Assembly: GCA_919902985.1 (NCBI GenBank) | Contig: CAKKSC010000004.1 | Coordinates: 62,001 to 126,000 of the forward strand | Reading direction: 5' to 3' | DNA from: Desulfuromonadales bacterium | GTDB lineage: Bacteria; Desulfobacterota; JAENJC01 | DNA length: 64,000 nucleotides | Shown: positions 1,062 through 23,730 of the stretch, piece after piece | Numbering within the stretch: the stretch's first letter is position 1 | How the letters are laid out: every line of letters starts with the position of its first letter | The notes under the pieces: generated by a model | The model's database searches: none | What the model was told of the DNA's origin: nothing | What the model saw: only the letters and a program-made list of their open reading frames with translations | Position numbers and translations under genes: made by a program

Positions 1062-1234
1062 TTTTCCCTCCTTGTCTTGGATTTTGGGTTAATGTTCCAA
1101 AAACTTTAGCCTCTTGCCTGATGCCATAAAAATCTAAAACCATACCTTCAAAATACTAAAATACCACCTCCTCCCTCTTTATCTTTGTTGGAACCGGAAC
1201 TACCTGCTAATAACGCTCAGAACGATTTGAAATA

Positions 1235-1269
1235 GTTGCCAGGCACAAGCTTTTATTGTACCTGACAAC
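1235..1269. repeat. Hairpin-forming inverted repeat in the nosZ/two-component intergenic region
   Basis: Two 14-base arms (1235-1248, GTTGCCAGGCACAA, and 1256-1269) match as inverted complements at 12 of 14 positions around a 7-base loop. No T-run follows on either strand, so a terminator is unlikely. It lies in the divergent region 170-210 bases upstream of nosZ and could be an operator or a structured leader. Confidence 0.6.
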
Positions 1270-1494
1270 GCACCGAAATAAGGTGTTCAACTTTGGTAGT
1301 TGTTATATAGACCAACGCTTTAAAATTGTCAAGATTTTTTTTAACAGTTAAAGTAAGCTTATAACAAAATGGCCACTGGCCACAAATAGAATATTCCTTT
1401 TTTACGATAAGCATTGCATCTTATATATTATTTCTTATATAATAATTCAAATGATGTGTGGACTGCAACTTCTTAAGTAGTTGTCATCCGGAAA

Positions 1495-1549
1495 CCGAAA
1501 ATCCCCCCTCACCCCCCTTTGGAAAAGGGGGACTTAGGGGGAGTTTCGG
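1495..1549. repeat. Interspersed C-rich/G-rich inverted repeat
   Basis: The left arm has two runs of C ending in CCCTTT. The right arm starts AAAGGGGG and ends with GTTTCGGG, pairing with the left arm over roughly 26 bases with a few mismatches. It is not next to a gene end, so it looks like a short interspersed palindrome rather than a terminator. Confidence 0.6.
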
Positions 1550-1684
1550 GTAGAGACTAAGTAACAATATCGTAACATGACATAGATTGCAACCTGGAAA
1601 AATTAACGTGATAAAATTGCCTGATCCACTAAGCACCGAAGGACAAAGTCCCAGCCAGACAACCAAACAGATCATGGAGGGCGA

Positions 1685-3070
1685 GTGATAGACAAACCTA
1701 AAATCCTTATAGTTGATGATGAACCTCTTATGAGGATAGCAATTATTGATGCCCTTCTTGCAGAGGGTTATGATGTAAAAGGAGTGGGGTCGGGTAAAGA
1801 AGGTAAGAATCTGATTCTCGATAATGGCTACGATGTATTAATTACAGACCTCAGACTGCCTGAAATAGACGGCCTTGAGATACTAAAAACCGTCATGGAG
1901 CATTCTCCAAAAACTAAGGTCATTATGATAACAGCTTACGGCTCGGTCAACACTGCGGTTGAGGCTATTAAACAGGGTGCTTACGATTATCTGACCAAAC
2001 CATTTTCCATGGAAGAACTTTTGATTATAGTCAGGCGTTTGCTGGAGTTTAGAGAGCTGGAATTCGAGAACCGGCAACTGAAAGAAAAGATAGATGAATT
2101 GTGTCATTTTGAGGGAATAATCGGAAGCAACAGCAAGATGAGAGATGTCATGGACAAGATAAAGGTGGTGGCAGAAACTGGGGCCACAATCCTGATTTCA
2201 GGTGAAAGCGGAACAGGAAAGGAACTGATCGCCAACGCCATCCACCACAGCAGCAGAAAAGACAGGCCCTTCATCAAGGTAAGCTGTGCCGCCCTGCCGG
2301 AAAGCCTTTTGGAAACCGAACTTTTTGGGCATGAAAAGGGGGCGTTTACCGGGGCGGTCAAACAAAAAAAGGGCAGATTCGAACTGGCCAATGGCGGGAC
2401 ACTGTTCCTTGATGAAATTGGCGAGATCTCACCTACCGTTCAGGTAAAGCTTCTCAGGGTTCTCCAGGAAAGGCAGTTTGAAAGGGTGGGTGGTACAGAG
2501 ACCATAGATATAGATGTAAGGATTATATGCGCAACCAACAAGGATCTGAAAAAAGAGGTACAGAGAAACGCCTTTAGAGAGGACCTTTATTACAGATTAA
2601 ACGTCGTGCATATCCATGTCCCCTCTTTGAGGGAAAGGAAAGAGGATATTATTCTTCTGGCAAACAGTTTTGTAAAGAAATTCGCTTCACAGAACAACAG
2701 AGAGATAGAAGGTATCTCGCCCGAGACCAGGGAGTTATTACTTAACTACCCCTTCCCTGGAAATGTCAGGGAGTTGGCGCACGCCGTCGAAAGGGCTGTG
2801 ATACTTGGGAACACTAAATATATCCAGCCAAAAGACCTGCCTGAAGATCTCCTGACCTATTACAATGATGCTCTTGGAACGTCAGCGAAATCCCGATATT
2901 CAGAACCATTATCAGAGGCAATAGAGCGTTTTGAAAAGGAATATATAATCAAGACCTTAGAGGCAACGGAAGGGAATAAAACCCTCGCTGCTGAAAAACT
3001 TGGTTTATCCAGAAAGACCCTCTGGATGAAATGCAAAAACCATGGGTTGGTCCAGGACACTGTAATATAA
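1685..3070 (+). CDS. Sigma54-dependent response regulator (NtrC family)
   Basis: This 461-residue regulator activates sigma54 promoters on phosphorylation. Domains in order: receiver (residues 6-120, with phospho-acceptor Asp about 55 in ITDLRLP and a KP near 104); AAA+ domain with Walker A GESGTGKE, the sigma54-contacting GAFTGA loop and Walker B LFLDEIGE; and a C-terminal Fis-type helix-turn-helix ([14 protein letters not shown]). The GTG start at 1685 is set by GGAGG at 1676-1680. The kinase gene begins 21 bases downstream, so the two form a cognate pair. The target genes are not shown by the sequence; nosZ, transcribed divergently, is an obvious candidate. Confidence 0.93.
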
Positions 3071-3091
3071 GGATTAAGGTTGAGGTAGATC

Positions 3092-5728
3092 ATGAAAAAT
3101 AAAATGCTAAAGATGGGGATACAGAGAAGGGTTATTACCTCGATCCTTATTGTAAGCATCCTCCCCCTTGTGGCTGGCCTGTATCTTACATATCGGGATG
3201 GGACAACTACTCGCAGGAACTCTATAGGCACGAGTTTCCAGGAGATAGCAAAAGAGACAGCCTACAAGATCGATATGATAATCGAAAAAGAGGTTGACGA
3301 TGTCCAAAGGCTTGCTATTTCGCCTGATGTCAGAGAGGCTGTTTTTCAGACCAGTCAGAATAACGAGGAACTGAATAATTATCTCGGACAGCTCGTTAAT
3401 TATAATGAAAAAGAGATATACAGCCTTACCGTAGTTGATACTGAAGGTAAGTACATAACCGGCGTTGGGACAACAACAAAAAGAAACTACAGTAACGAAA
3501 AATGGTTTATAGAGGCGTTCAATGCCGGCAGGGGGAAGGTGTCTGTTGGTAATTTAGAGTTTAATAAGATATCCGAAGTGTATATTATAAGCATCGCTGC
3601 ACCTGTCATGGATAATTTAAAGGCCATGGGTGTAGTTGTAATAAAATACAATATTGATAATCTCCTTGAAGTCATTACCAACGTGAGGATTGAAAAGACC
3701 GGCCACGCAAACCTTGTAGATTCCTCAGGCACAATAATCATGTGTCCGATCTTCCCCCCACGCAGTCACCAGATAAACCCCGGCCTCCTTAACATAATAA
3801 AAAACACAAAACCAGGATGGGGAACAGCAGAGGATGATGCCCATGGCGGGGAAAACTCAATTATCGGCTTTGCCCCCGTTAACTCTACTTTGGATCCAGA
3901 TAATGGCTGGTTTGATGGACATACATGGCACATCTTCATAAGACAAAACCCTGATGAGACATACGAACCTATTTATTCTCTCGTCATCCAGATATCTATA
4001 TTCGGCTCTGCACTTATAATATTACTGTCTCTCGCTGGAGTATATGCAACCAGGAAAATCGTCAGACCGATTAATCAGCTATATGAGGGAGTGGGGCGTA
4101 TAGGGCAGGGGGACCTTGACTATCGTCTCAACATAAAGACCAATGACGAGATAGAAAAACTGGCGGATGAATTTAATCTCATGGCAGGGAAGCTTCAAGA
4201 GACCTACTCCAAACTCGAAAACAGGACGACGGAACTTGAGACATCGGAAGAAAGATACAAAGACCTTATTGAAAACTCACCCGAGATGATACACTCTGTT
4301 GATTCTAACAGGTTCTTTGTAGGGGTGAATAAAACGGAACTCGATATACTTGGCTATACCCTTGACGAAATGATGCAGATGAGGATAGAGGACATCATGC
4401 CTGAGGAGTTCAAATGCCAGGGCATAAACCACATTGCAACATCAAGAGATAAAGGTGTCAGCACTATAGAGGGACAATTTATTTCAAAGGATAGTAGAAG
4501 AATCGATGTGGAGATTACAGCTACTGCTTGTTACCACCCGCTAACAGGTGAATTTGTCAGAACAAGGGCGTTTGTAAGGGACATTACGGACAGGAAGAAG
4601 CTGGAGATGCAGTTGAAAGAATACTACGAAATCCTGGAGCAGAAGGTGCAGGACAGGACGAGGGAGTTGAAACAGACCAAGGATTATCTTGAAAACCTTC
4701 TTGAAACAGCAAACGATGTTATTTATACGCTAAATCCAGATGGGATAGTTACTTATGTCAACAAAAAGATAGAGGAGTGGGGCTACACTAAAGATGAGCT
4801 GATTGGGAAATCCTTTTTGACCGTCTTTTCAAAGGTACATAAGGGTGAGAGGTTTAAAAAGACAGTACGGGATGGGATAAAACAGACTTACGGAGTAGAG
4901 GTTGTAAGCAAAACAGGTGAGCCGAAATATGCAATATTAAGCATTTCACCTATCAGGGAGAACAACGGAATAATAACAGAGGTATTAGGCATAGCTAAGG
5001 ATATAACAGATCAGAAAATGCTCGAAAAGCAGGTAGCAGATACGGAGAAGATGTCAGCCATCGGACAGCTTGCTGCAGGAGTCGCTCATGAAGTAAATAA
5101 CCCTCTCGGCGGGATATTAAACTGCCTTTATAATCTCAGGAAAAATGAATTCTCGGAGGAAAAGGAGGAAGAGTATTACATGGCCATGGAGGATGGCATC
5201 CACAGGGTCAAGAAGATCGTCAGCCAGTTGCTTGACTTTTCTCAGCAGCATGAACCTGAATTCACTTATGAGGATATAAATACCCTGGTAGAAAATGTCT
5301 TCTTCCTGATGAACTGCACCTTTTCCAAGAACGGGATCACTTTTAAAAAGAAACTCTCCCCACGCCTTCCAAAGCTATTTATAGATAAGCACAAGATATC
5401 ACAGGTATTAACCAATATACTCATAAATGCTGTTCAGGCAACAAAAGAGAAGGGACAGATAACCGTCCGGACAACACATAAGGAAGGCTGGTGCATAATA
5501 GATATTGCTGATTCCGGCCCAGGAATCCCGGAAGATATTTTCCCCAAGATATTCGACCCGTTCTTTACAACAAAAGACGTTGGAGAGGGCACAGGTCTTG
5601 GTCTTTCGGTAAGCAGGGGTATAATAGAGATGCACAACGGGAAGATAGATGTTAAGAGCACGGCTGGCGTCGGCGCTATCTTTACTATTAAACTCCCTAT
5701 TGCCTCACCGCAACATCCGGCAGTTTAA
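3092..5728 (+). CDS. Membrane sensor histidine kinase with Cache, HAMP and two PAS domains
   Basis: This 878-residue kinase is the partner of the upstream NtrC-type regulator. Order: transmembrane helix (about 15-30), periplasmic dCache-like sensor (to about 295), second transmembrane helix (about 300-322), HAMP, two PAS domains (about 390-500 and 535-645), HisKA with the phospho-acceptor in GVAHEVNNP (His about 667), and HATPase with N, G1 (DSGPGIP) and G2 (GEGTGLGLS) boxes. The large periplasmic domain suggests sensing of a small extracytoplasmic ligand. The gene ends 6 bases from the convergent Hsp70-like gene, with no terminator visible in between. Confidence 0.93.
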   Translation: MKNKMLKMGIQRRVITSILIVSILPLVAGLYLTYRDGTTTRRNSIGTSFQEIAKETAYKIDMIIEKEVDDVQRLAISPDVREAVFQTSQNNEELNNYLGQLVNYNEKEIYSLTVVDTEGKYITGVGTTTKRNYSNEKWFIEAFNAGRGKVSVGNLEFNKISEVYIISIAAPVMDNLKAMGVVVIKYNIDNLLEVITNVRIEKTGHANLVDSSGTIIMCPIFPPRSHQINPGLLNIIKNTKPGWGTAEDDAHGGENSIIGFAPVNSTLDPDNGWFDGHTWHIFIRQNPDETYEPIYSLVIQISIFGSALIILLSLAGVYATRKIVRPINQLYEGVGRIGQGDLDYRLNIKTNDEIEKLADEFNLMAGKLQETYSKLENRTTELETSEERYKDLIENSPEMIHSVDSNRFFVGVNKTELDILGYTLDEMMQMRIEDIMPEEFKCQGINHIATSRDKGVSTIEGQFISKDSRRIDVEITATACYHPLTGEFVRTRAFVRDITDRKKLEMQLKEYYEILEQKVQDRTRELKQTKDYLENLLETANDVIYTLNPDGIVTYVNKKIEEWGYTKDELIGKSFLTVFSKVHKGERFKKTVRDGIKQTYGVEVVSKTGEPKYAILSISPIRENNGIITEVLGIAKDITDQKMLEKQVADTEKMSAIGQLAAGVAHEVNNPLGGILNCLYNLRKNEFSEEKEEEYYMAMEDGIHRVKKIVSQLLDFSQQHEPEFTYEDINTLVENVFFLMNCTFSKNGITFKKKLSPRLPKLFIDKHKISQVLTNILINAVQATKEKGQITVRTTHKEGWCIIDIADSGPGIPEDIFPKIFDPFFTTKDVGEGTGLGLSVSRGIIEMHNGKIDVKSTAGVGAIFTIKLPIASPQHPAV

Positions 5729-5734
5729 CCCTAT

Positions 5735-8410
5735 TTACTGGAGCCTTAATCCGGTTTCAATAACCCTGTTTTGGTCCCCATATATCAAAGATAGATGGCC
5801 GGTTTCATTGACATGTATTTGTATGTCAACCTCGCTGTTCACCTTTGCTTCAAACGGCAGAGTTACTGTCTTTAATCCTGTCAATGTAACATCCCTGGTC
5901 TGATTAAGCTCCTGTGTTATGAATTCAATACCGGATTCCGCTACCCACCTCCTGGCTATTATGTTCTCAGGGACCTCGAACAATTCAAGGGACAACTCAT
6001 TCTGAATACCCAGTTTACACGCCGGTCTTATCTTGAAGGTCTTCTTAATGGGGAGAAGCTCCCCTTTCTCAAGGACAATGCTGTATGAATATGGGACATC
6101 CTTATCGTCAGTCACGTAACGAACGGCATAAGCCATACTGAGATGCCTATCGGTGACAGCTTTCGTCCCATAAACGGCAGCCCCAAGGGCTACAGCAGAA
6201 AGGGGGCTGTGATCATAAATAAGATTCTGCCTACTGAGTTTAGGGAATATATATTCTATCTTCTCCCTGAAAGATGGGATCTGGGAGGACCCCCCGGTCA
6301 TAAGAACGCCCTCTATCTTATCTTTTTTTAATCCAACTTTTTCAGCTCTTTTAAGCACATTAGATATATTACGGTCTACGACCTTATAAAAATCATGTTG
6401 TTCGAGAAGCTCTTCCAGTTCCTCGCGAGTTATAGTGCCAATATAACCACCTTCCAATTCAAATGGGACATCCTTCCTTTTGGAAAGATCGATCTTGATC
6501 TCCTCTGCAAGGACCAAAAGCCTGTGTTGGGTCGCATCGGTCAACGGCAGCCCGGCTTTTATTGCCAGATGTTCCCGAAGCCAGTTGTCTATGTCATGAC
6601 CTCCCAGCATCTGGGCCCTGTCCTGCTTGGCGACGACATGGGCCAAGCCGGTATTTACCCTGATTATCATAATGTTCAGGGTACTCCCGCCAAAGTCTAT
6701 AATCATAATTACCTTGTCTCTGTTTTCAACCACCTGATAACCTATTGCCGCCGCAAGTGGTTCTTCTATAAATTCGATATTAACTCCCCGGATAGTCTTC
6801 TCCACTATCTCTCTCATCGCCTTTTTATAATACTGGAACCCCACAGGAACGGTAATATAGATGATGTCCGCCATATTCCTTGAGACTATCGAAAACCACC
6901 CTCCGCTCACAGTCGCTTTTTTCAGGTGTTGGTAAAGGATCCGGAAAAACCTTTCCATATGGACCTTCCCCTTCGGGTTCCCTTCCAGAAGCATCTGTTT
7001 AATGTTTATCAGAGGGTTTTCCTCGATAACTTCGGCGCCTATGCTGTTTGTCTCGGAACTCAGGATTGTAGGTATTACATAAGCCGAATCATATTTTTTG
7101 CATACAGAGGGTAAAACTATAAACTCCGGCTGTTCATCCCCCTTCTTCCTCATGATAACCGTATTTGTGGCGCCTACGTCTATTGATATGAAATTGTTCA
7201 CTACTGGAGCGGCATAGACTTCCTGACTCTGAGAGACAGGCAGAATGCCTGCTCCAACAGGGTGTACCTCCTTTAAGAATACCGGCCTCTCTATCTCTCT
7301 CCCGTGGAAGATCTCCTGCAACGTTTCCAGATGTGCCACTGCCGTTCGAACCGAGTCCCTCAATCTTTTTGGCTGTATCCAGATATGGGTGTATGGCTTC
7401 AGGGCTTCTATAAAGCGGATATCGTTTAATCGCGCCCCGAATTTATCTATCTCGGCAGATAATATATCCGAGTATTTCTCCCTGGAGAACCTTCTCTTTT
7501 TTGACTCCTTGATCCCGGGCTCCTCGGCTGAAAGCATATAATCAACAACATCTACGGCCTCTATATCCTCCATCCACTTTCTGACAGTAAAGAAGTTCAG
7601 GGCCTGCTGAATTGCATCCATAAGGAGTACAGAATATTCCCGCGTCTTCGGAATCTCCACGATGACCTCAATTAATGCATGCTCTCTGGCGAACGGGTCC
7701 TTTATTACTATTGCAGCTTTATACGCATCTGTTAGCGCCCGCCTGTAAATATCCGGGAATTCTCCAGTCTTTCTAAGTTCATTAGCAATAAACAGAAGGA
7801 CATACTTCCTGTAATAAGGCTCTTCAATGAGCGCAGTAGCATCAATAGCAAGCGAGACGGCTTCCAAATATAAATCGAGGAAGACCCCCACTTTCGGAAG
7901 CTCACTGGCGACCCCGAGAAGTGTATATCTTCTGTAAAAAGAATAATCGCAGGTCTTTGGCAACTGCCTGGCTATGAAATCAAGAGATGGTTTTTCATAG
8001 CGGGGTTTATCCGGGAGGTTAAGGGCCAGCCTCCATGCATGGAGGCGGAGATTCGCAAATCCTTCTGTCTTTGGGAGCTCATGGGCAATCCTGACGAGCT
8101 CATTTATCCGATACTGGCCTTCCTTGACGGCATCGGCCGCTACGATCACGGCCTCCATAGCCTTTAAATATAATTGCTCGAAGGGATCAGTCCGGGGGAT
8201 GTCTTTTACGAAATCAAGGAGGGCGCTCCTGTGTGCTGATGGGTCGTCAATCCTGTTTATCAGATCCAGACCCTGCTCAAAGAAATCAATATATTCGGTA
8301 TTCTTAGGGATCTCCCTTAAAATACTAATAAGAGACGATCTGGAGGCTGGCTGGTCTGCTGAATCTCTTATGCCATTAAGGGTCTGCCTTATTCGTTCTA
8401 TATTTATCAT
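5735..8410 (-). CDS. Hsp70/actin-fold ATPase with N-terminal helical repeat array
   Basis: This 891-residue protein is far from ordinary DnaK. Residues about 30-275 are seven degenerate repeats of about 40 residues, each carrying a (L/I)-P-K-T-like turn (near residues 34, 71, 112, 150, 171, 212 and 253) followed by paired helices rich in Leu/Ala/Tyr. After a charged linker, an Hsp70-type nucleotide-binding domain starts with SIDVGATNTV (about 409), followed by IIDFGGSTLNI and GVLMTGGSSQIP as phosphate and adenosine motifs. A beta-rich C-terminal region resembles an Hsp70 substrate-binding domain. There is no signal peptide. It is the last gene of the operon, 7 bases after the radical SAM gene. 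It is probably a specialised chaperone, with an unknown client. Confidence 0.8.
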   Translation of the reverse strand: MINIERIRQTLNGIRDSADQPASRSSLISILREIPKNTEYIDFFEQGLDLINRIDDPSAHRSALLDFVKDIPRTDPFEQLYLKAMEAVIVAADAVKEGQYRINELVRIAHELPKTEGFANLRLHAWRLALNLPDKPRYEKPSLDFIARQLPKTCDYSFYRRYTLLGVASELPKVGVFLDLYLEAVSLAIDATALIEEPYYRKYVLLFIANELRKTGEFPDIYRRALTDAYKAAIVIKDPFAREHALIEVIVEIPKTREYSVLLMDAIQQALNFFTVRKWMEDIEAVDVVDYMLSAEEPGIKESKKRRFSREKYSDILSAEIDKFGARLNDIRFIEALKPYTHIWIQPKRLRDSVRTAVAHLETLQEIFHGREIERPVFLKEVHPVGAGILPVSQSQEVYAAPVVNNFISIDVGATNTVIMRKKGDEQPEFIVLPSVCKKYDSAYVIPTILSSETNSIGAEVIEENPLINIKQMLLEGNPKGKVHMERFFRILYQHLKKATVSGGWFSIVSRNMADIIYITVPVGFQYYKKAMREIVEKTIRGVNIEFIEEPLAAAIGYQVVENRDKVIMIIDFGGSTLNIMIIRVNTGLAHVVAKQDRAQMLGGHDIDNWLREHLAIKAGLPLTDATQHRLLVLAEEIKIDLSKRKDVPFELEGGYIGTITREELEELLEQHDFYKVVDRNISNVLKRAEKVGLKKDKIEGVLMTGGSSQIPSFREKIEYIFPKLSRQNLIYDHSPLSAVALGAAVYGTKAVTDRHLSMAYAVRYVTDDKDVPYSYSIVLEKGELLPIKKTFKIRPACKLGIQNELSLELFEVPENIIARRWVAESGIEFITQELNQTRDVTLTGLKTVTLPFEAKVNSEVDIQIHVNETGHLSLIYGDQNRVIETGLRLQ

Positions 8411-8417
8411 CTTTCAT

Positions 8418-8990
8418 TCAGTGCAAAATATTTATTCTGCTGAAACCTGTCTCCTTTATCATGCCGTCACTCTCAATAATGACCTCAACCTTCCCCTGCA
8501 TGTAGAAGTCAGCAAGTCCATAGCAGTCAGTCAAGAAATGGAACCTCTGGTTCGTTGAGCCCCTTGCCAGGAGGCTCTTCTCTTTTTTTTCGTCTTCATA
8601 AGCTCCGTCTATCAGTACATCAATATATGGCAGGGACAGATATAAAGACGGCATCTTCAATATCTCCTCATATGTGAAACCGGTATATACAACCGTATTA
8701 AGATTATAAACTTCCTTGGCGACCTTAAGCAGGCAGATGAGACCGTCCGGCTGCAGAAACGGCTCTCCTCCGCTCACGGTAATCCCCTCGACTCCAGCAG
8801 AATGGAACCTGCTGAATATCTCTTCAACACTCAATGATTCACGGATTTCTAATGGGTGGGTGTCTGGATTGAAGCAATCGGGGCAACCCCTGGTGCACCC
8901 CTGAAAAAATATGACCATCCTGGAGCCAGGTCCGTTTACCCTGGATGACGGCAGCACGGCATGTACGTTCAAAGATAATTTGCTAATCAC
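8418..8990 (-). CDS. Radical SAM activating enzyme (NrdG/PflA-like)
   Basis: At 190 residues this is a short radical SAM protein of the glycyl-radical/anaerobic ribonucleotide reductase activase type. GPGSR is followed by the 4Fe-4S motif CTRGCPDC (CX3CX2C, about residues 32-39) and the SAM-binding GGEP segment. The GTG start overlaps no neighbour and lies 6 bases after the DUF2997 stop. No glycyl-radical enzyme or NrdD gene is in the window, so its substrate is open; proximity suggests it acts within this operon. NrdG itself is an alternative, but the company of DUF1257/DUF2997 argues for a dedicated role. Confidence 0.8.
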   Translation of the reverse strand: MISKLSLNVHAVLPSSRVNGPGSRMVIFFQGCTRGCPDCFNPDTHPLEIRESLSVEEIFSRFHSAGVEGITVSGGEPFLQPDGLICLLKVAKEVYNLNTVVYTGFTYEEILKMPSLYLSLPYIDVLIDGAYEDEKKEKSLLARGSTNQRFHFLTDCYGLADFYMQGKVEVIIESDGMIKETGFSRINILH

Positions 8991-8996
8991 TGCGGC

Positions 8997-9179
8997 TCAC
9001 CGGTCTGTCTCTATATTTATTCGAGCAGCTGTGTCAAATTCGTCTTTTTCAATAAAACTTTCGACCTTGCCTAACACCTTCGAAAGATGCTGCGCCACTT
9101 CCTTGCAATCAGTGAATACGGTTGAATCTATCTCAACCTTTCCGTCAGGGGTTATCCTTACTCTGATCTCACGATCCAT
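8997..9179 (-). CDS. DUF2997 family small protein
   Basis: This 60-residue protein opens with a beta-hairpin-like stretch (REIRVRITPDGKVEI) and continues with an amphipathic helix around residues 25-45, the typical shape of DUF2997 proteins. It has no cysteine motif except one Cys near residue 25 and no membrane segment. In other genomes DUF2997 genes accompany DUF1257 (Ycf35-like) genes and Ycf46-like AAA ATPases, which is the arrangement here. Its function is unknown. A hairpin lies just upstream (9202-9254). Confidence 0.72.
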   Translation of the reverse strand: MDREIRVRITPDGKVEIDSTVFTDCKEVAQHLSKVLGKVESFIEKDEFDTAARINIETDR

Positions 9180-9201
9180 GAAGCATCTCCTGCGCCTTTT
9201 T

Positions 9202-9254
9202 AGGGGCCGTTACGAAATAACCATTACATTTCCAACCCTTTCGTTACGGCCCCT
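9202..9254 (-). repeat. Long hairpin between the DUF1257 and DUF2997 genes
   Basis: Arms of 16 bases (9202-9217 and 9239-9254) pair at 15 of 16 positions around a 21-base loop. On the transcribed strand the hairpin is followed by A residues, not T, so it is not a standard terminator. It sits 23 bases before the DUF2997 start and could process or stabilise the operon mRNA, or be an interspersed repeat. The 123-base gap holds nothing else. Confidence 0.65.
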
Positions 9255-9302
9255 TATGCCGATCACTGTATTGCGATGTTACAGTTGTTTTTTTACAACG
9301 GC

Positions 9303-9644
9303 TTACCCTTTCAGGACTATCCTGATCTCCCCGGAAGTCTCAGTCTCCTTGGCTATCTCAAAATCCAGGGGAAGATTGTCTTTAATCGACTCGTATGCGT
9401 ACAACTGTTTCAGCCTGTTTGAAAAGCCCTGAACAACACGATTGTCTCCTGCCAATTCGAAACTGTTCCCCGATTTTTCCCTGACAATATTCATTATATC
9501 ACCGCCCCGGTCAATCTCTATTGTCTCCTTCCTTTCATTCACAAGAAAATTTGTGACCTCTCCCCTCTCCTTCAGTTCTTCAAGGGCGCATATGATATAT
9601 TTCTTATTCGACAGTTCGGTCTTTATGACTGTATAAAAAGACAT
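9303..9644 (-). CDS. DUF1257 (Ycf35-like) protein
   Basis: This 113-residue soluble protein has the DUF1257 pattern: an N-terminal SFYTVIKTEL strand, a conserved helix with KKYIICALEEL, and a C-terminal half with QLYAYESIKDNL. Ycf35 of plastids and cyanobacteria belongs to this family, whose function is unknown. Its start is 8 bases upstream-overlap-free from the AAA protease stop and uses a GAGG site. The AAA ATPase (Ycf46-like), DUF1257 and DUF2997 run in that order, a recurring association. Confidence 0.78.
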   Translation of the reverse strand: MSFYTVIKTELSNKKYIICALEELKERGEVTNFLVNERKETIEIDRGGDIMNIVREKSGNSFELAGDNRVVQGFSNRLKQLYAYESIKDNLPLDFEIAKETETSGEIRIVLKG

Positions 9645-9652
9645 ACCATGCC

Positions 9653-11785
9653 TCAGTTTAATGGATTTTGATTGAAAAACACGGCCAGGCTGTCCCCGTT
9701 CATCAATATATCCTTGGTCAGCCTGTCAACCAGGCGCACCAGAACATCCCTGTTTTTCGAGATAGTCGTTGCAGTTGCTTCCTTTGAGTTATCAAGTATC
9801 TTCTGGATATCGTCAAGGATATCGCTTCCAGAGGTAAGGGCATAGTCCTGAAGCACAACCAGGCTCTTGTTCTTCATTATCTCGCCAAACCCATATTCAA
9901 CAACCATCTTTCTCGCTATTACAGTGGCCTGCATAAGGTCCTGGGAGGCGCCCAGCGTCTTGGAGTCACTTCCGTTTAACTCATCCTCTGTTACCATGCC
10001 ACCCAGTATAACGCCTATCTCCTTTTCGAGGTCTGTCTTGGTAAAGGTAGTCCTTATGGTCTCATCGAACGGCACAAAAGAGCTGTAGTTTTTATAGTTG
10101 TCAACGCTGACAAATGTCGGCGTCCTGGCAAAATGGTGCCACATCATGATGGAGTGGCCGGCCTCGTGCAGGGCTATATTCCTCTTTTCAGCATCAGTCA
10201 GCAACTCAGCCCTCTGGACAAACAGCGAGCGGGATGCCGGCCTCGCCCTCTGGTGACTCCATCTCCTAAGCTCCTCTATCTCTTCCTTCTTTAATACAGA
10301 GAGGGGGGTAATGGTCCTTAAGGAGGTCAAGAGGGTCTCCTGAGTCAAGTCCAGGGAGAGGAGGCCGTCTATCATATCCTCAATCTCTTTCGAACTCTGA
10401 CCGCCATGTATCTTATTGAAGGTAGCCACTATGGCATCTTTTACAGCCTGCTCTATCTCCGCTCCGGTAAAACCCTGGCTGTTCTGGGCCAGTTCTCTCA
10501 GGTTCAACCTGTTTATGTTCCCGATTCTCTTTTCAAGGTGGATCCTGAATATCTCCTCTCTTTCCTCGATACTCGGCAGGTCAACAAAGAAGACCTCATC
10601 GTACCTGCCCTTCCTCCACAACTCAGGAGGAAGGTTCTTTGGTTCATTAGCTGTAGAGATGACGAAGACAGGGTCTTCCTTCTCCTGAAGCCAGGTAATA
10701 AATGTCCCGAATACCCTCATCTGGGTCCCGGAATCTCCCTGATAACCACCTATTCCGCCAAAGGCCTTGTCAATCTCATCTATCCAGAGTATGCATGGAC
10801 TCACTGCCTCTGCAAGCTGGATACACCTTCTGATATTCTTTTCCGATTCCCCGACAGTAGACCCAAAGAGCCTTCCCACATCCATCCTCAGAAGTGGAAG
10901 GTTCCATATCCCTGCCAACGCCTTGCAGCAAAGGGATTTACCGGACCCCGGAACGCCGATGAGTAGAAGCCCTTTGGGGATATCCAGCCCGAGGGTCTCA
11001 ACCTTATCCCTGCTCAGACGGAATACGTGCTCCCTCTCCACAAACCACTTCTTTATCTCGGTCAGGCCGCCTATATGTTCAATGGCTTCCTTATGAGGAT
11101 AATAGTCCAGTATCTTCTGTTTTCTGATGATCTGCTGCTTTTCGTCCTGTATGGAGGAGATGCACTCCTCATTAAGTACGCCTTTATTCATGCTTATGGC
11201 CTTCCTCATGACACGCTTTATGTTGTCCATGGAAAGCCCCTGAAGGGACTTGTACAGTATGGACCTTGTGGAGGCATGCCACTTCTCAGGGATCATGTGG
11301 CCGTAAGTATTAGATACCATTTCGGCTATCTCATCATAGTCAGGGAGGGAAAGCTCCAGCACAATTATGTCTTCCTCAAGCTCAGGCGGGATTTCACTTA
11401 GTGTAGGGGAGAGAATGCAGATCGTGTTAACAGTCCTCTGCTCATCAATTATTGCGGGGAGGTCTCTGAATTTCCTCAAAAACTCATGAGAAGTGAAATA
11501 TCCAGCTATGTCTTTGAGCAAAAATATATTGTTGCTGTCGCCTTTTGATATCTTCTCTTCTATGGTGGAAAGTACCTTCTCCCTTCCCAACTGTTCCCTT
11601 TTCTTCTTCTCCCCGCCGTAAAGCCCACGGGATACAGACCAGGACCAGAAGGTGAATCTCATAGACTCAGAGAGGTTCTCAACTATCCTTTCTACCCTTC
11701 GTTCCTCAAAGGACACAAGCCATAAAATAGGGTACTTGGCCTCGACATGTATCTTTATCTCGTTCTCAAAATCTTTAGTTTTCAT
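9653..11785 (-). CDS. Soluble Ycf46-like AAA+ ATPase fused to an FtsH-type (M41) metalloprotease domain
   Basis: The protein is 710 residues long. Residues 1-230 match the N-terminal region of Ycf46-type AAA proteins. The AAA+ module follows, with Walker A GVPGSGKS (277-284), Walker B ILWIDEID (332-339), sensor-1 STAN and an arginine-finger region (WRKGRYDEVFF). Residues about 510-705 resemble peptidase family M41: the zinc motif HEAGH (540-544) and GASQDLMQAT, whose Asp fits the third zinc ligand of FtsH. Unlike FtsH there is no transmembrane helix, so this is a cytoplasmic ATP-dependent protease or a derivative. There is no ribosome binding site; a TATAAT box lies 8 bases upstream of the ATG. 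It heads the DUF1257/DUF2997/radical SAM/Hsp70 genes. Confidence 0.85.
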   Translation of the reverse strand: MKTKDFENEIKIHVEAKYPILWLVSFEERRVERIVENLSESMRFTFWSWSVSRGLYGGEKKKREQLGREKVLSTIEEKISKGDSNNIFLLKDIAGYFTSHEFLRKFRDLPAIIDEQRTVNTICILSPTLSEIPPELEEDIIVLELSLPDYDEIAEMVSNTYGHMIPEKWHASTRSILYKSLQGLSMDNIKRVMRKAISMNKGVLNEECISSIQDEKQQIIRKQKILDYYPHKEAIEHIGGLTEIKKWFVEREHVFRLSRDKVETLGLDIPKGLLLIGVPGSGKSLCCKALAGIWNLPLLRMDVGRLFGSTVGESEKNIRRCIQLAEAVSPCILWIDEIDKAFGGIGGYQGDSGTQMRVFGTFITWLQEKEDPVFVISTANEPKNLPPELWRKGRYDEVFFVDLPSIEEREEIFRIHLEKRIGNINRLNLRELAQNSQGFTGAEIEQAVKDAIVATFNKIHGGQSSKEIEDMIDGLLSLDLTQETLLTSLRTITPLSVLKKEEIEELRRWSHQRARPASRSLFVQRAELLTDAEKRNIALHEAGHSIMMWHHFARTPTFVSVDNYKNYSSFVPFDETIRTTFTKTDLEKEIGVILGGMVTEDELNGSDSKTLGASQDLMQATVIARKMVVEYGFGEIMKNKSLVVLQDYALTSGSDILDDIQKILDNSKEATATTISKNRDVLVRLVDRLTKDILMNGDSLAVFFNQNPLN

Positions 11786-11860: not shown

Positions 11861-12220
11861 CTAAACCGGTATGTTAATGTAGAAAACAAGGAGCCAGATG
11901 GTGATAAGAGTCCCACCCATCCAGCTGACGTATTTCAAAAAACGCTTATGCCTCCTGATTATCCGGAGCTTGACCAGAAAGACCGCCAAACCGGTGAGAG
12001 GCAACAGTAATGCTGCTATATTTATCATACTGCTTGAAATTGCAATAAGGGCTAATACGTTAAAGAGGATTACTGTCAGGTATCCATTTGCTCGATGGAT
12101 CATCCCTTCAATCGATGCTCTCGTAGCCCTGATCAGCTGCAGACCACTGATGAAACTGGTTACAGCCAGGACAATCCCGATACTCGCCAATATTATAGAC
12201 GCACTTGAAAATATAAACAT
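11861..12220 (-). CDS. Small four-helix membrane protein, unknown
   Basis: I do not recognise a family for this 119-residue, very hydrophobic protein. Four probable transmembrane segments are seen at about residues 4-28, 44-62, 63-85 and 97-116, with a basic cytoplasmic loop RIIRRHKRFLK before the last. It begins 2 bases inside the spacing after the NosD-like gene stop (12222), so the two are translationally linked. The AAA-protease gene follows after 75 bases. Confidence 0.65.
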   Translation of the reverse strand: MFIFSSASIILASIGIVLAVTSFISGLQLIRATRASIEGMIHRANGYLTVILFNVLALIAISSSMINIAALLLPLTGLAVFLVKLRIIRRHKRFLKYVSWMGGTLITIWLLVFYINIPV

Positions 12221-12221
12221 T

Positions 12222-13013
12222 TTAAACCCTGTAGATAGTCTTCAATACACGCCTTTGAATAAAATATGAGATGATCCCTATATATGCCAATATCAATGGC
12301 ATTATTATGTAAATATTCGACCATGTCGAGTTGTTGATTAATGTGTTGTTGCCGCCCCCGCTAATAACGATTCCAAACCTGTTCCTCCATGCCCTGTTGT
12401 CCTTCAAGGTATTGTTGCTTGAATCCCAAAGTAGGATCCCGTTCCAGGTGTTATGGTTAACATTATTGTCCGTAAGGTTATTATAGCTGGAGGAGCTCAG
12501 GAATATCCCATTGTCTTTATTTGAACTTGCGCTGTTTTTTTCCAGGCTGTTCCTATTGGATGAATCAAGATATATCCCATAGCTTTCGTTTAAATCGGCT
12601 GAGTTGCCTGCTATCGTATTGTTGCTGGAACCATAGAAAATAATTCCATTACCGTTCTTTACACTCTTGTTATCAGTAATCGTCCCATTATTGGAATTAT
12701 AAAGGTATATGCCGGAAAGAAGAGAACCTGTGGTCGTAAAGCCCGATATCGTTACATTATTAACGTTGCTTATCTTAAACACAGGCTCGCTGGGAACAGC
12801 TGCCAAGATAGTTGTGAAATCCGGGCCTCTGCGCGACCTTATCGAAACCGGCCTCGTGATCGAAACATTTTCTTTATAAATTCCTTCACTCACAATTATA
12901 GTATCTTCCTTGGAGGCGTTAATTACCGCCTCCTGGATAGTCTTATAGTTTTCAGGAACAATGATTGTAGAATAAATAAGTAATAATGCTGTTAATGACA
13001 GCATGTGTCGCAC
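12222..13013 (-). CDS. NosD-like parallel beta-helix surface protein with C-terminal anchor
   Basis: This 263-residue protein starts with a short hydrophobic signal segment (to about residue 17) and continues with a right-handed beta-helix: an initial YKTIQEAV/EGIYKENV unit followed by 22-23 residue turns with NN(T/L)I..N motifs, as in NosD and CASH-domain proteins. Near the end a transmembrane helix (about 236-252) precedes a basic tail, fixing it to the membrane with the helix outside. Family members bind carbohydrate or, for NosD, help copper maturation of NosZ; which applies here is not shown. The gene start overlaps the hemerythrin gene by 22 bases. Confidence 0.72.
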   Translation of the reverse strand: MRHMLSLTALLLIYSTIIVPENYKTIQEAVINASKEDTIIVSEGIYKENVSITRPVSIRSRRGPDFTTILAAVPSEPVFKISNVNNVTISGFTTTGSLLSGIYLYNSNNGTITDNKSVKNGNGIIFYGSSNNTIAGNSADLNESYGIYLDSSNRNSLEKNSASSNKDNGIFLSSSSYNNLTDNNVNHNTWNGILLWDSSNNTLKDNRAWRNRFGIVISGGGNNTLINNSTWSNIYIIMPLILAYIGIISYFIQRRVLKTIYRV

Positions 13014-13813
13014 GCAATCTCTTTTGATTCAACAGCCTTCTGGTGGAATCTCGCCCTTTCAACTGCTTTTTCCTCATCCGGTTTGCGTTCTCCCGGCTCA
13101 ACTGGAATAAATGAATGCTCTGCATGCCTCATCCCTTTCATCAAGGACCCTTTCATATCTTCTGTGATATACTTCCTCACAAATTCAAAAAACTCATTGT
13201 CCTCCTTGCGGACATGGCTTCTGAGAGCAACAAGCGCCGAGCCGATTATCTTATCGTTTATGGTTCCATCCCTGAGGGCCTCGCGGAAAGAGTATATTAG
13301 AGATATAATCTCGCGGTGGTCCTCGTTTATGCAGGCGACAAGACCTTCGCCAAAAGGCACAAGCCCCCTCAAAGCAGGGAACAGAACCTCTTCCTCTTTG
13401 ATGCCGGAATGCAGCTGGAGGAGGTTATCGAGCTCTGCGGTAGAAACCCAGAGTTCATCAATATTCCTCTTGACCAGAATAGCGTCAACTTTGTCAGCCA
13501 TCTCCAGTATCTTTTGATGCTCCGAAATCAGAGCTGCAATTGGGTCCGTCCTCGGGTCGGTTGCTGGAGACAGCTCTTCTCTTCCACCCAGCACATCCTC
13601 ATCCTTAGCTGCTTCAATACTTAATGCCTCAAACTGCTGGGAATAGCCCATACGACATGCATGTCTGGGACTTTTAAAATACCTGGCATCCTCATATGAA
13701 GCCGCCAACCGGGCATATTCAGACTCTGTCAGGAACAATATTCCATTCTTGCAATGAACAACGCAGGATGAATGGTGACATGTATACTTTATTTCTAAAA
13801 CCTTATCCGACAT
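12992..13813 (-). CDS. Hemerythrin-domain protein with Cys/His-rich N-terminus
   Basis: In this 273-residue cytoplasmic protein, residues about 95-220 are a hemerythrin four-helix bundle with the di-iron ligand pattern HQKIL, HSGIKEEEVLF, EDHREI and HVRKEDNEFF. The first 70 residues hold CHHSSC, a further Cys and a HACRMGYS segment, and the C-terminus ends CDTCCH. Both clusters look metal- or redox-active, but I know no family for them. Hemerythrins bind O2 or NO and some repair FeS clusters, which fits a denitrifier. AAGGAG precedes the ATG. Confidence 0.8.
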   Translation of the reverse strand: MSDKVLEIKYTCHHSSCVVHCKNGILFLTESEYARLAASYEDARYFKSPRHACRMGYSQQFEALSIEAAKDEDVLGGREELSPATDPRTDPIAALISEHQKILEMADKVDAILVKRNIDELWVSTAELDNLLQLHSGIKEEEVLFPALRGLVPFGEGLVACINEDHREIISLIYSFREALRDGTINDKIIGSALVALRSHVRKEDNEFFEFVRKYITEDMKGSLMKGMRHAEHSFIPVEPGERKPDEEKAVERARFHQKAVESKEIACDTCCH

Positions 13814-13831
13814 AATTACATACTCCTTATC

Positions 13832-14347
13832 TTAAGCGTGACCTGGAATATCATGCTCGATCGGCGCAGATTGCAGTGTTGGTATTCCAAACCTGTCGTT
13901 AAATGTACTTATTATATATAAAAGTGTCCTGTGGTTTAACAGTAGCCCTTTATATAGATTTGTCTTGGAAAGACCATCAAAGTACAACTCATATGAAAAT
14001 GAAACCTGTTTTACTATACCTTTTTCATCCATGTTTAAATCGTAGCTGTTATCCAAAAACAAGAGGTCTTTTCTAATTGACTCATAAAAGCTGTCTCTCT
14101 CATCCTCCGTAAGCTCAGACAGCTTCCCCATATGTTCAGGTGCCAGAGAGACGCCGTTTAATAAAACAATAAGTCCAGGATACTCCTTTGGCTGTATGAC
14201 CCGCTGTCTTTTCTGTGAAGCAAGCGGATAATCTATCTCAAAATGAAAATTTGCATTCTCGTCTTTTGCATCACTTACCTGATGATGATTCTCAGTAAGC
14301 CATTTCTTAATCCCATCTTTTGCCTGTTCTACAGTCGTAATCTCCAT
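13832..14347 (-). CDS. DUF2299-like protein
   Basis: This 171-residue soluble protein contains an N-terminal helix followed by a mixed alpha/beta fold (NFHFEIDYPL, YPGLIVLLNGVSLAPEHM). The layout resembles DUF2299 proteins and, more loosely, type III-chaperone-like folds; the assignment is tentative. The start has AAAGGAG. The hemerythrin gene follows 18 bases after its stop, making this the first gene of the minus-strand run that ends at 5735. Confidence 0.5.
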   Translation of the reverse strand: MEITTVEQAKDGIKKWLTENHHQVSDAKDENANFHFEIDYPLASQKRQRVIQPKEYPGLIVLLNGVSLAPEHMGKLSELTEDERDSFYESIRKDLLFLDNSYDLNMDEKGIVKQVSFSYELYFDGLSKTNLYKGLLLNHRTLLYIISTFNDRFGIPTLQSAPIEHDIPGHA

Positions 14348-14448
14348 TCAACAACTCTCCTTTTTTAATTATTTACTGGTTATAATTTTACTACACTTGA
14401 TAAAACCTGTCCAGCTTTTTTGGCATAGACCTTTCCATTTTTTCATTT

Positions 14449-14580
14449 GAGGCTTTTGCAAATCTCTAAGAAACGCAGTTTTGTCATTTCGACCAGCGGG
14501 AGAAATCTTTGTTTTTATTACACTGAAAGATTCCTCACTTCGTTCGGAATGACACAAAAGCGGACTTTTGCAAGAGGCTC
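14449..14580. mobile_element. MITE-like inverted-repeat element, copy 1
   Basis: The element is 132 bases long. Its ends (GAGGCTTTTGCAAA and TTTTGCAAGAGGCTC) are terminal inverted repeats, and a perfect ATTT flanks both sides (14445-14448 and 14581-14584), looking like a 4-base target duplication. The interior is a second, imperfect palindrome of the common GTCATTCCGAACGAAG type. There is no transposase inside. The same ends enclose a different interior at 39243-39372. Confidence 0.72.
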
Positions 14581-14674
14581 ATTTGACTATAGTGCAGTCC
14601 GGTATATGTCCAAAAAAGAGAGATTAAACAGGCACGAAGGAGGTCTTCCCTCGTGCCTGGAATGAACTCAACAC

Positions 14675-14986
14675 TTACTCATGGCCTCCACCGACTTCCT
14701 TTTTGAAAGTCTGACAAAGCTGTGAACAGCGTGTGCAATAATAGGTGTGGTCCAGTTCATACTCCTTATAGATCGGACATGTCTCACATAGGCACTCCTT
14801 TTCCCACTGTATCGCCTTGCTGGTACCTACCATAGGGAAGCAATAAGCGCCTTCAGGGTTATCCCCTTTCACAAATGTTGGGCACCCTGTACATTTGCAT
14901 TTACTCAGGACATAATCCTGCCTCTTTGCATATTCCTCCTTGCTCAACCCCTCCTCGCCAAACCTGTCATAATCACTGATCCTCAT
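14675..14986 (-). CDS. DUF2769 cysteine-rich protein
   Basis: The protein is 103 residues with eleven cysteines. CKCTGC followed by a GDNPEGAYCF segment is the DUF2769 signature; CLCETCP and YCTRCSQLC follow. Such spacing suggests binding of zinc or FeS clusters, but the function is unknown. The start has AGGAGGTGATACT upstream. It is monocistronic, between the mobile element and a small membrane protein gene. Confidence 0.75.
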   Translation of the reverse strand: MRISDYDRFGEEGLSKEEYAKRQDYVLSKCKCTGCPTFVKGDNPEGAYCFPMVGTSKAIQWEKECLCETCPIYKEYELDHTYYCTRCSQLCQTFKKEVGGGHE

Positions 14987-15104
14987 AGTATCACCTCCTT
15001 TTAGATTTTTATCTAATTAAAGATTAACACTGATTTTCAGGGTGTCAAGTTCACTCCCCTATCCTCCCCTTTAATAATGGGGATGTCAGGTAGGAGTAGT
15101 ATTC

Positions 15105-15314
15105 TCATCCAGCCATTAATGAATAGATGCTGTACCCAGCAAACAAGAGGCCGACGACCAGATTCAAGGGTCGGGTGTTATCAGTGGGTTGCGGCATCAA
15201 CAGAGCATCTATACGTATTGACTCAGTTACCTTATTTCGAACAAAGGTAGCCAGGATGAGCAAGAGCCCGTAGATTATGCCTATTACAGTAACAATATTA
15301 TCCAAATTATCCAT
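15105..15314 (-). CDS. Small two-helix membrane protein, unknown
   Basis: This 69-residue protein has two predicted transmembrane helices (about 8-25 and 51-66) and a polar loop. I chose the ATG at 15314 because a longer reading to 15386 would run through the terminator at 15322-15350. No Shine-Dalgarno sequence is visible, so it is uncertain whether this is translated. Confidence 0.45.
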   Translation of the reverse strand: MDNLDNIVTVIGIIYGLLLILATFVRNKVTESIRIDALLMPQPTDNTRPLNLVVGLLFAGYSIYSLMAG

Positions 15315-15321
15315 AATTAAG

Positions 15322-15350
15322 AAAAAAGAGGGAAGGCATCGCCCTCCCTC
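15322..15350 (-). terminator. Rho-independent terminator after narK2
   Basis: On the minus strand, GAGGGAGGGC and GCCTTCCCTC pair at 9 of 10 positions around a 3-base loop and are followed by TTTTTT. It lies about 90 bases after the narK2 stop and closes the nitrate operon. Confidence 0.8.
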
Positions 15351-15440
15351 ATGTATATCGCATACTCTAAGGCAACCCATCCCCACCCCGCCCCTTAAAG
15401 GGGAGGGGAGATGTGTCAGACATCAACTGCCTTCCGGTAT

Positions 15441-17081
15441 TTATGGGTTCTGGCTTACGTATCTTTGTCTCTCAGACTCGGTTATCCTGTCCCACCATGT
15501 GTTGCCAACACCCCAGTCACCCCTCTCAGCGCCAGGTTTGGTGTAGAACCACCAGTTAAGCAAACTGCCAATTGCGCAGAATACGATTAACCCCGTAAAG
15601 AACGGTATCGCGGAACCATATTTGCTTATAGAACCTCCGATGAGGGAAGAAAATATGAACGGCCCATAGGCAGCCCATGCTCCTGTCCAGCCCAGTATTT
15701 GAGATCCCAGCCTAGGAGAGTAGGCATAAACAATCGGGTACTGGCGGAAGGTAGCAAAGTTACCGATTCCTGCCGATAAGAATATTCCTAACATAATCCA
15801 GACGAACATCGGGAACTGGTCCAGGGATGTTGGCGTCAGATATCCACCGAATATCAATGCCAGAGACCCTATGATCAGGCCTGCCCCGGAGATTTGCGTA
15901 AATATGCTTCCGCCAAATTTGTCGGCTAAAGGTCCACCGCCGAAGCGGACAACAGAACCTATGAGGGGGCCGAGGTACGCATATTTCAGCGGGTCCGGCG
16001 CCAGGGCGGCATCCATTCCCGGGATGCTTCCATATAAAGTCTTTATCATGAGCGGAAACGCTGCCGCAAAGCCGGCGAAGGAACCGAAGGTCATGATATA
16101 TGTCCAGACCATGAAATACGCATGCTTGTTATTAGTCATGTCACCCACCATCTTGCCGAAGGAGGGCTTTTTCATAGGTATACTTCTAAGTAAAAACCAG
16201 CAGAGGATACCGGCAATAATAAGGTACGGCACATACCAGAAGGCCGCATTCTGCAGCCATATATCCTTCTTGATGATCTTCTTGACCGTTACGTCCGAAA
16301 CCACTCCAGCCTCATTTTTCTTGACCTCGGCCTTCATGCCCTTTGTCGCATCCGTTTCTGTAATGACTATGTCCTTAACTGCTCCTGCTTCATCTTTCAC
16401 AACAGTTATCGCTTTAGCAAGGCCCTCATCTTTAACTACTACGTCCTTGACAACCCCTGCTTCTTTCATAATCTTCACTGCAAAGACCGGGGTTGCCTTT
16501 GTAAAGAGCTGCGGCGCTCCGGCTGCTCCAATTACTGCAAAGCCTATAATCCAGGGGGTTATAAACTGAGTAACACTCACGCCCAGGTTGCCGATTCCAG
16601 CCTGTAGACCCATGGCAGTGCCCTGCAACCTCTTTGGGAAAAAGAGACTGGTTGAAGGCATGAAGGAGGAGAAATCTCCGCCTCCAAAACCGCAGAGGAA
16701 CGATATTATCAGGAAGTGCATGTAAGGAGTTTCGGGGTTCTGAACAGCATATCCGAGCCATATCATCGGAATAAGCTTAATAAAAGTTGCAACCGTAACA
16801 GTGATCCTGGTGCCATATATAGGTATCAGGAATGAGTGTATTGTTCTCATCGCGCCAGCTGCAAGGCCCGGCATCGCGGCAAGCCAGAAGAGCTGCATCG
16901 TATCGAACTTAAACCCTATAGCAGGAAGGCGCACAGCGACAGCGCTCATAACAAACCATGTAGCAAATGATGCAAGAAGGCTGAACGTGGTAACACTAAG
17001 AGTCGTCCAGGCCCGAGCGCTACCTTCCTTAGCCCAGAATTGCAGATCTTCAGGCTCCCATTTTTTTAACCATGATGACAT
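15441..17081 (-). CDS. narK: Nitrate/nitrite MFS transporter with a large central loop insertion
   Basis: This 546-residue protein is of the NarK/NNP family, with 12 transmembrane helices. NNP signatures are seen: GFGGGDFSSFMPSTSLFFP, where the second half normally has a matching nitrate signature, and AGIGNFATFRQYP. It is about 100 residues longer than usual. Residues about 197-274 form a charged insertion made of repeats like KDEAGAVKDIVI and KNEAGVVSDVTV, placed between helices 6 and 7. A terminator lies between it and narI, so it may have its own promoter. It probably imports nitrate or exchanges it for nitrite. Confidence 0.88.
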   Translation of the reverse strand: MSSWLKKWEPEDLQFWAKEGSARAWTTLSVTTFSLLASFATWFVMSAVAVRLPAIGFKFDTMQLFWLAAMPGLAAGAMRTIHSFLIPIYGTRITVTVATFIKLIPMIWLGYAVQNPETPYMHFLIISFLCGFGGGDFSSFMPSTSLFFPKRLQGTAMGLQAGIGNLGVSVTQFITPWIIGFAVIGAAGAPQLFTKATPVFAVKIMKEAGVVKDVVVKDEGLAKAITVVKDEAGAVKDIVITETDATKGMKAEVKKNEAGVVSDVTVKKIIKKDIWLQNAAFWYVPYLIIAGILCWFLLRSIPMKKPSFGKMVGDMTNNKHAYFMVWTYIMTFGSFAGFAAAFPLMIKTLYGSIPGMDAALAPDPLKYAYLGPLIGSVVRFGGGPLADKFGGSIFTQISGAGLIIGSLALIFGGYLTPTSLDQFPMFVWIMLGIFLSAGIGNFATFRQYPIVYAYSPRLGSQILGWTGAWAAYGPFIFSSLIGGSISKYGSAIPFFTGLIVFCAIGSLLNWWFYTKPGAERGDWGVGNTWWDRITESERQRYVSQNP

Positions 17082-17120
17082 ATTAGCTCCTTTGAGAAAA
17101 ATATTTTACTCTCAATATAC

Positions 17121-17151
17121 AAAAAAGGCGGGCGTTGCGCCCGCCTTTTTT
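17121..17151. terminator. Bidirectional Rho-independent terminator between narI and narK2
   Basis: A perfect 8-base-pair stem, GGCGGGCG (17127-17134) with CGCCCGCC (17138-17145), has a 3-base loop and A- and T-runs on the two sides. It sits 18 bases after narI and would stop or reduce readthrough into narK2. Confidence 0.88.
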
Positions 17152-17168
17152 GTTTTGTCTTATTTGTC

Positions 17169-18424: not shown

Positions 18425-18430
18425 CAATCT

Positions 18431-23727: not shown

Positions 23728-23730
23728 TAG

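Follow-up and report, generated by a model that had tools for sequence, protein, structure and literature searches.

Ycf46, Ycf35 (DUF1257) and DUF2997 are retained in cyanobacteria, and the first two also in many plastids; Ycf46 is said, going by the title of a 2015 report by Jiang and colleagues that is cited in PMC7283877, to be involved in CO2 utilisation in Synechocystis. Both ycf35 and ycf46 are counted among plastid genes (PMC5940233). In cyanobacterial cluster g the gene order is DUF2997, ycf35/DUF1257 and fed7, with ycf46 located elsewhere in the genome; the ferredoxin Fed7 interacts with a DnaJ protein in two-hybrid tests, and the phenotypes associated with it are general stress phenotypes (PMC4284462). 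Among 5.39 million papers of the open literature, DUF1257 or DUF2997 is named in only three.

Here we analysed a 64,000-nucleotide stretch from a Desulfuromonadales bacterium (the window), in which five genes on the minus strand occupy the whole of positions 5735–11785. All five open reading frames were confirmed at the positions given in a preliminary description of this DNA:

9653–11785, minus strand: AAA-M41 fusion protein, 710 aa (Pfam AAA and Peptidase_M41)
9303–9644, minus strand: DUF1257 (Ycf35-like) protein, 113 aa (sub-threshold Pfam match, iterated profiles, position)
8997–9179, minus strand: DUF2997 protein, 60 aa (sub-threshold Pfam match, iterated profiles, position)
8418–8990, minus strand: radical SAM protein, 190 aa (Pfam Fer4_12/Radical_SAM)
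5735–8410, minus strand: Hsp70-like protein, 891 aa (Pfam HSP70)

Reading from the AAA-M41 gene to the Hsp70-like gene, the intergenic gaps are 8, 123, 6 and 7 nt, the 123-nt gap lying between the DUF1257 and DUF2997 genes, and a promoter scan gave no excess over shuffled sequences. The unit and cyanobacterial cluster g have members of the DUF1257 and DUF2997 families in common, each with a partner Fe-S protein and, at the level of the genome, a Ycf46-type AAA protein. It differs in that Fed7 is a ferredoxin and not a radical SAM enzyme, and in that the cyanobacterial cluster has neither an M41 domain nor an Hsp70 gene. The five-gene combination was not found described in the open literature, and to that extent the unit can be called undescribed, as had been claimed.

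Conservation of the five-gene unit

With an alignment of the AAA-M41 protein as query, 84,980 species genomes were scanned. The scan returned 26 loci (L058–L083) at 71–97% identity; in most the match spans all 710 aa, and in a few a contig end cuts it short. Below these loci identity fell sharply to 41% or less, and the matches ended near residue 520, corresponding to Ycf46-type AAA proteins that do not carry an M41 domain. Once duplicates had been removed and contigs that were too short left out, every one of the 24 remaining loci, the window included, was found to carry all five genes in identical order and strand. The lack of conserved co-occurrence that the preliminary description had named as grounds for rejecting the unit was thus not what the informative loci revealed. 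In a few of the 24 the Hsp70-like gene is divided over two open reading frames, and one (L062) carries a 2.6-kb insertion ahead of the radical SAM gene. In three further loci the contig ends within the Hsp70-like gene, and in one genome (G056) the AAA, DUF1257 and DUF2997 genes lie at one contig end while the radical SAM and Hsp70-like genes lie at the end of another, which is consistent with a contig break.

The genes flanking the unit vary between loci and are not conserved across the set, and no sixth conserved gene was found beside it across the unit loci. That order and strand were kept in all 24 loci while the flanks varied shows that the adjacency is not due to chance. Some neighbouring genes are common to loci within a single order, as neutral synteny would predict; however, only the five genes persist as the flanks change, and their order is held across approximately 42–60% Hsp70 identity and several families. 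An explanation by chance or neutral synteny is contradicted already by the present data, and we assign it a near-negligible probability.

At higher coordinates, positions 11861–24384 of the window hold a nar/nxr-like molybdoenzyme cluster, genes for a DUF2299 protein, a hemerythrin and a NosD-like protein, and, directly upstream of the unit, a small membrane open reading frame. The order of this region is common to the window and two other loci (L074 and L082) and is not found at the other unit loci. The preliminary description had suggested a dedicated machine and a look for deletion phenotypes under nitrosative or oxidative stress. A dedicated and conserved unit of AAA protease, Hsp70 and radical SAM genes is supported; a role in nitrosative stress is unsupported, the nar-like cluster nearby being shared with only two other unit loci.

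The repeat-containing Hsp70 was detected in 40 of the 48 genomes of one order (that of the closed genome G213), or 29 of 33 when only good-quality genomes were counted, which points to vertical inheritance. An even sample across the phylum yielded it in 17 of 395 genomes, two of the 17 being weak matches to another type of Hsp70, and a search among relatives placed it in the same four genomes as the M41-fused AAA protein. Within one group, therefore, the unit is of long standing and has been passed on vertically, and it is there neither an accident nor a mobile cassette. Kept in one order in many uncultured bacteria, the five genes very probably form one protein-handling machine.

Domain architecture of the proteins

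The AAA-M41 protein consists of a Ycf46-type N-domain and AAA module followed by an M41 zinc protease domain (residues 529–692). Its catalytic motifs are all intact: Walker A (277–284), Walker B (333–340), an arginine-finger motif (RKGR, from 391) and a zinc site formed by HEAGH (540–544) with Asp616 as third ligand. HExxH is present in every copy of the M41 domain that could be read that far (HEIGH and HEAAH variants included), and those copies that were aligned also show the third-ligand Asp. Over the full length of N-domain and AAA module, residues ~6–520 are 35–43% identical to Ycf46-type proteins from cyanobacteria and other organisms. The protein shares with FtsH the AAA module, the arginine-finger motif, HEAGH and the third-ligand Asp. 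In contrast to FtsH, it has a Ycf46 N-domain and no FtsH-type membrane segment (peak 19-residue hydropathy 1.27, compared with 2.48 for an FtsH control), and its score against the FtsH model TIGR01241 (173.3 bits) falls far below the curated cut-off of 600. The protein is of the Ycf46 AAA type and bears an added FtsH-type M41 domain. Canonical FtsH itself was not found in the window genome (G000, a 95%-complete assembly), likely because of an assembly gap, since relatives in the same genus and phylum have it.

The pore loop of the AAA-M41 protein reads T-V-G where FtsH has F-V-G, so that the aromatic residue is replaced, and other Ycf46-type proteins likewise lack it. This replacement makes processive unfolding by the AAA-M41 protein doubtful. 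The ring may instead rely on clients that have already been loosened, which would agree with an Hsp70 partner.

The Hsp70-like protein begins with an alpha-solenoid of 41-aa repeats (about residues 1–370), followed by a nucleotide-binding domain (about 405–750) and an SBD-beta-like domain (about 755–891). The 41-residue periodicity of residues 1–300 exceeded that of all 500 shuffles, and each of the 18 homologues likewise has 41 as its best period. An AlphaFold model (pLDDT 74.8, pTM 0.44) placed paired helices, an actin-like domain and a beta domain in that order and ended after the beta strands, with no C-terminal alpha-helical lid. When the model was searched with Foldseek, the best match was DnaK (E 3e-20, 539 columns), and BiP and Hsc70, lid-truncated forms included, also matched over more than 530 columns. 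Against PF00012 the protein scored 96.1 bits, and against the DnaK model TIGR02350 84.9 bits, under the cut-off of 822.55. It has nucleotide-binding and SBD-beta-like domains in common with Hsp70s of the DnaK/BiP type but differs from them in lacking the alpha lid and in carrying an N-terminal alpha-solenoid of ~370 aa.

In relatives of the same phylum, a separate HEAT-repeat gene lies beside a gene for a shorter Hsp70 in the AAA cluster. The Hsp70 domains of the window and of these sister systems are related (99% hhalign probability). Homology between the solenoid arm of the window protein and the sister HEAT protein was considered and found undetectable (hhalign probability 0.5%), and the two are treated as analogous. 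A solenoid joined with Hsp70 therefore recurs with Ycf46-type AAA proteins in two apparently unrelated ways.

The two small proteins of the window score below their families' thresholds: DUF1257 (PF06868) reached 15.6 bits against a gathering score of 22.2, and DUF2997 (PF11211) 23.4 bits, narrowly under 24.1. Their assignments hold because iterated profiles join them to bona fide family members, because of their position, and because relatives in the same phylum score higher (83.3 bits for DUF1257 in L032, 60.5 bits for DUF2997 in L033). Four residues of DUF2997 (Ile9, Gly13, Cys25 and Gly37) are invariant in 24 aligned homologues, and its single Cys is kept in every aligned copy, those on plasmids included. 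DUF1257 was predicted to adopt a compact alpha/beta fold (pLDDT 86.8); a fold search against the PDB gave no match at E ≤ 0.001, and a sequence search gave only matches that look like chance. The search of DUF2997 against the PDB gave no match. A possible glycyl-radical motif in the window copy of DUF1257 (NRVVQGF) was rejected, as relatives do not keep it.

The radical SAM gene and the older quartet

Both superfamily motifs are present in the radical SAM protein (CX3CX2C at 32–39 and GGEP at 74). With the glycyl-radical activases NrdG and PflA it shares these motifs and a short radical SAM core; it differs in having an extra C-terminal region, which its AAA-linked relatives also have and NrdG does not, in having no known glycyl-radical partner, and in its position among AAA-linked proteins in a tree. 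The best NCBIfam match was to NrdG (TIGR02491), and the window genus does carry an NRDD gene, as would be expected if the gene encoded an NrdG that serves class III ribonucleotide reductase and stood in the operon by accident. However, the match (119.7 bits) is under the cut-off of 126.1, and NRDD was absent from all 12 unit-bearing genomes of 98–100% completeness (closed G213 included), two of which have a Gly_radical domain and ten of which do not. A first set, overlapping these 12, comprised 19 genomes from genera other than that of the window; none gave NRDD and three gave Gly_radical. Among the genomes examined, those bearing NRDD belong to the window genus only. The C-terminus of NrdD normally carries the radical glycine in the motif RVxGY. 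In the window genus, the class III ribonucleotide reductase-like gene ends in RITNY in all three genomes (L147 in G002, L148 in G001 and L149 in G000), with Asn replacing Gly at what we take to be the usual position of the radical glycine.

Similarity points the same way. The window protein is 44% identical over 183 aa, C-terminal region included, to the AAA-linked radical SAM protein of Paenibacillus polymyxa plasmid pPPM1a, whereas an NrdG encoded on a different P. polymyxa plasmid is 37% identical to it over 146 aa. On the absence of an NrdD partner, the sub-cut-off score and this similarity we rejected an identity as NrdG, which we regard as very unlikely. The label of activase marks a family resemblance only, since there is no NrdD, and in most cases not even a glycyl-radical domain, for the protein to act upon.

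The best full-length plasmid relatives are separated from a Ycf46-type AAA gene by a few genes at most, on plasmids of Paenibacillus, Treponema, Rhodococcus, Paenarthrobacter and Arthrobacter. A tree set the AAA-linked radical SAM proteins apart from NrdG with moderate support (97/77, one long-branch Bacillus row included), a placement that we read as support and not as proof. On pPPM1a (L186) the four genes run AAA, DUF1257, DUF2997, radical SAM, just as in the window, the last being listed as a 4Fe-4S single-cluster gene. In contrast to the window, the AAA protein there lacks M41 (no HExxH), no Hsp70 gene adjoins and the set is plasmid-borne. Such quartets occur on plasmids of Bacillota and Actinomycetota. 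Judged by the plasmid neighbourhoods, the 44% identity and the tree, the radical SAM gene is part of this older, widely distributed module of AAA, DUF1257, DUF2997 and radical SAM genes, which appears re-assorted elsewhere: within the same phylum as a HEAT-repeat gene with Hsp70-like, AAA, DUF1257 and DUF2997 genes, and in L181 (G224, 231–6853) as radical SAM, FGE-sulfatase (SUMF1-like), DUF1257, AAA, DUF2997 and Hsp70 genes. Of the parts thought to have been added to a known association, the M41 domain and the repeat-Hsp70 kept that status, and the radical SAM gene belongs to the older quartet. The M41 domain and the solenoid-Hsp70 fusion alone are particular to this group, and the unit would be an elaboration of the Ycf46/DUF1257/DUF2997 module with these two as its new parts.

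The plasmid quartets, together with Ycf46-like AAA genes in phages and a separate plasmid set of PIN, AAA and radical SAM genes, fit a different origin, in which the quartet served plasmids and phages for defence or counter-defence and then became fixed and elaborated in this lineage. PADLOC models for IetA also match the AAA domain; however, these matches cover AAA domains common to many families, and the IteA score of 103.8 is far below the NCBIfam cut-off of 510. A Pfam scan of the unit genes and upstream neighbours found no IetS subtilisin-like protease. Described NTP-dependent conflict systems (MoxR-vWA, GTPase-HSP70; PMC7159879) resemble the unit in having AAA or Hsp70 parts in operons and differ in that the unit has no MoxR, vWA, TRAFAC GTPase or tubulin; the text of that paper makes no mention of Ycf46 or DUF1257. 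Occurrence with the same architecture in 40 of the 48 genomes of one order is, moreover, unlike the patchy distribution of a defence locus, and we consider this origin unlikely.

Several mobile elements carry related genes. The plasmid set just mentioned, found in L189 (Polaromonas), L193 (Moellerella), L197 (Leisingera) and L198 (Acinetobacter), comprises genes for a PIN-domain protein, a hypothetical protein, an AAA ATPase, which in L189 is of AAA_2 type, and a relative of the window's radical SAM protein. In L198 the stretch read showed no PIN gene. On Treponema succinifaciens plasmid pTRESU01 (L182), genes for a Ycf46-like AAA protein and a radical SAM protein adjoin one for phage baseplate assembly protein V, which suggests a contractile injection or phage-like locus. 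Ycf46-like AAA ATPases are also encoded by mycobacteriophages of the Corndogvirus group (Mycobacterium phage Firecracker, L184) and by some Pseudomonas and Rhizobium phages.

A proposed protein-handling machine

We propose that the unit encodes one soluble, ATP-driven machine for protein quality control or maturation, built on the older quartet, a reading to which we give about an even chance. Gene content, order and conservation, the intact catalytic motifs and the domain architecture are observed; the steps of complex formation, substrate flow, radical chemistry and client we infer. According to the model, the Hsp70-like protein would use its solenoid arm and lidless substrate domain to capture a client, which it would then deliver to AAA-M41 subunits arranged as a ring. 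The pore of this ring, in which the usual gripping aromatic is replaced, might depend on clients loosened beforehand. The M41 domain would then cleave the client, and DUF1257 and DUF2997 would act as adaptor subunits of the AAA ring. The radical SAM enzyme would modify either a subunit or a metalloprotein client, as a step of maturation or licensing, the best candidate subunit being DUF2997 with its single invariant Cys. A more specific version has the enzyme act on DUF2997 (invariant Cys, two Gly), such that a radical or a radical-made modification activates or targets the AAA-M41/Hsp70 machine; this we hold to be a long shot, and we know of no AAA protease in which control of this kind occurs. 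Because cyanobacteria have Fed7 beside DUF2997 and Ycf35, the radical SAM step would not be universal.

The quartet occurs elsewhere with neither protease nor Hsp70, so degradation was probably not its ancestral task. The existence of the quartet free of any protease also suits a scheme of assembly and not destruction, in which the unit matures one metalloenzyme: the radical SAM protein and DUF2997 would install a cofactor-like modification, Hsp70 and the AAA protein would remodel the apo-protein, and M41 would make a single processing cut. These families recurrently have an Fe-S protein as partner, Fed7 in cyanobacteria (PMC4284462) and radical SAM elsewhere, and Fed7 binds a DnaJ protein. 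However, no candidate metalloenzyme is conserved beside the unit, and the general nature of the Fed7 stress phenotypes speaks against so specific a role. Maturation of a single metalloenzyme is, in our estimate, somewhat improbable, and we retain the soluble quality-control or maturation machine as the working model.

The unit shows which companions Ycf46, Ycf35 and DUF2997 have beyond photosynthetic organisms, namely a radical SAM enzyme as a member of the module and, in the present group, a fused protease and a solenoid-Hsp70. It offers a testable frame for an old orphan family, whose members may be adaptors of an AAA ring that cooperates with a chaperone, and it presents an instance in which a radical SAM enzyme is joined with an AAA motor.
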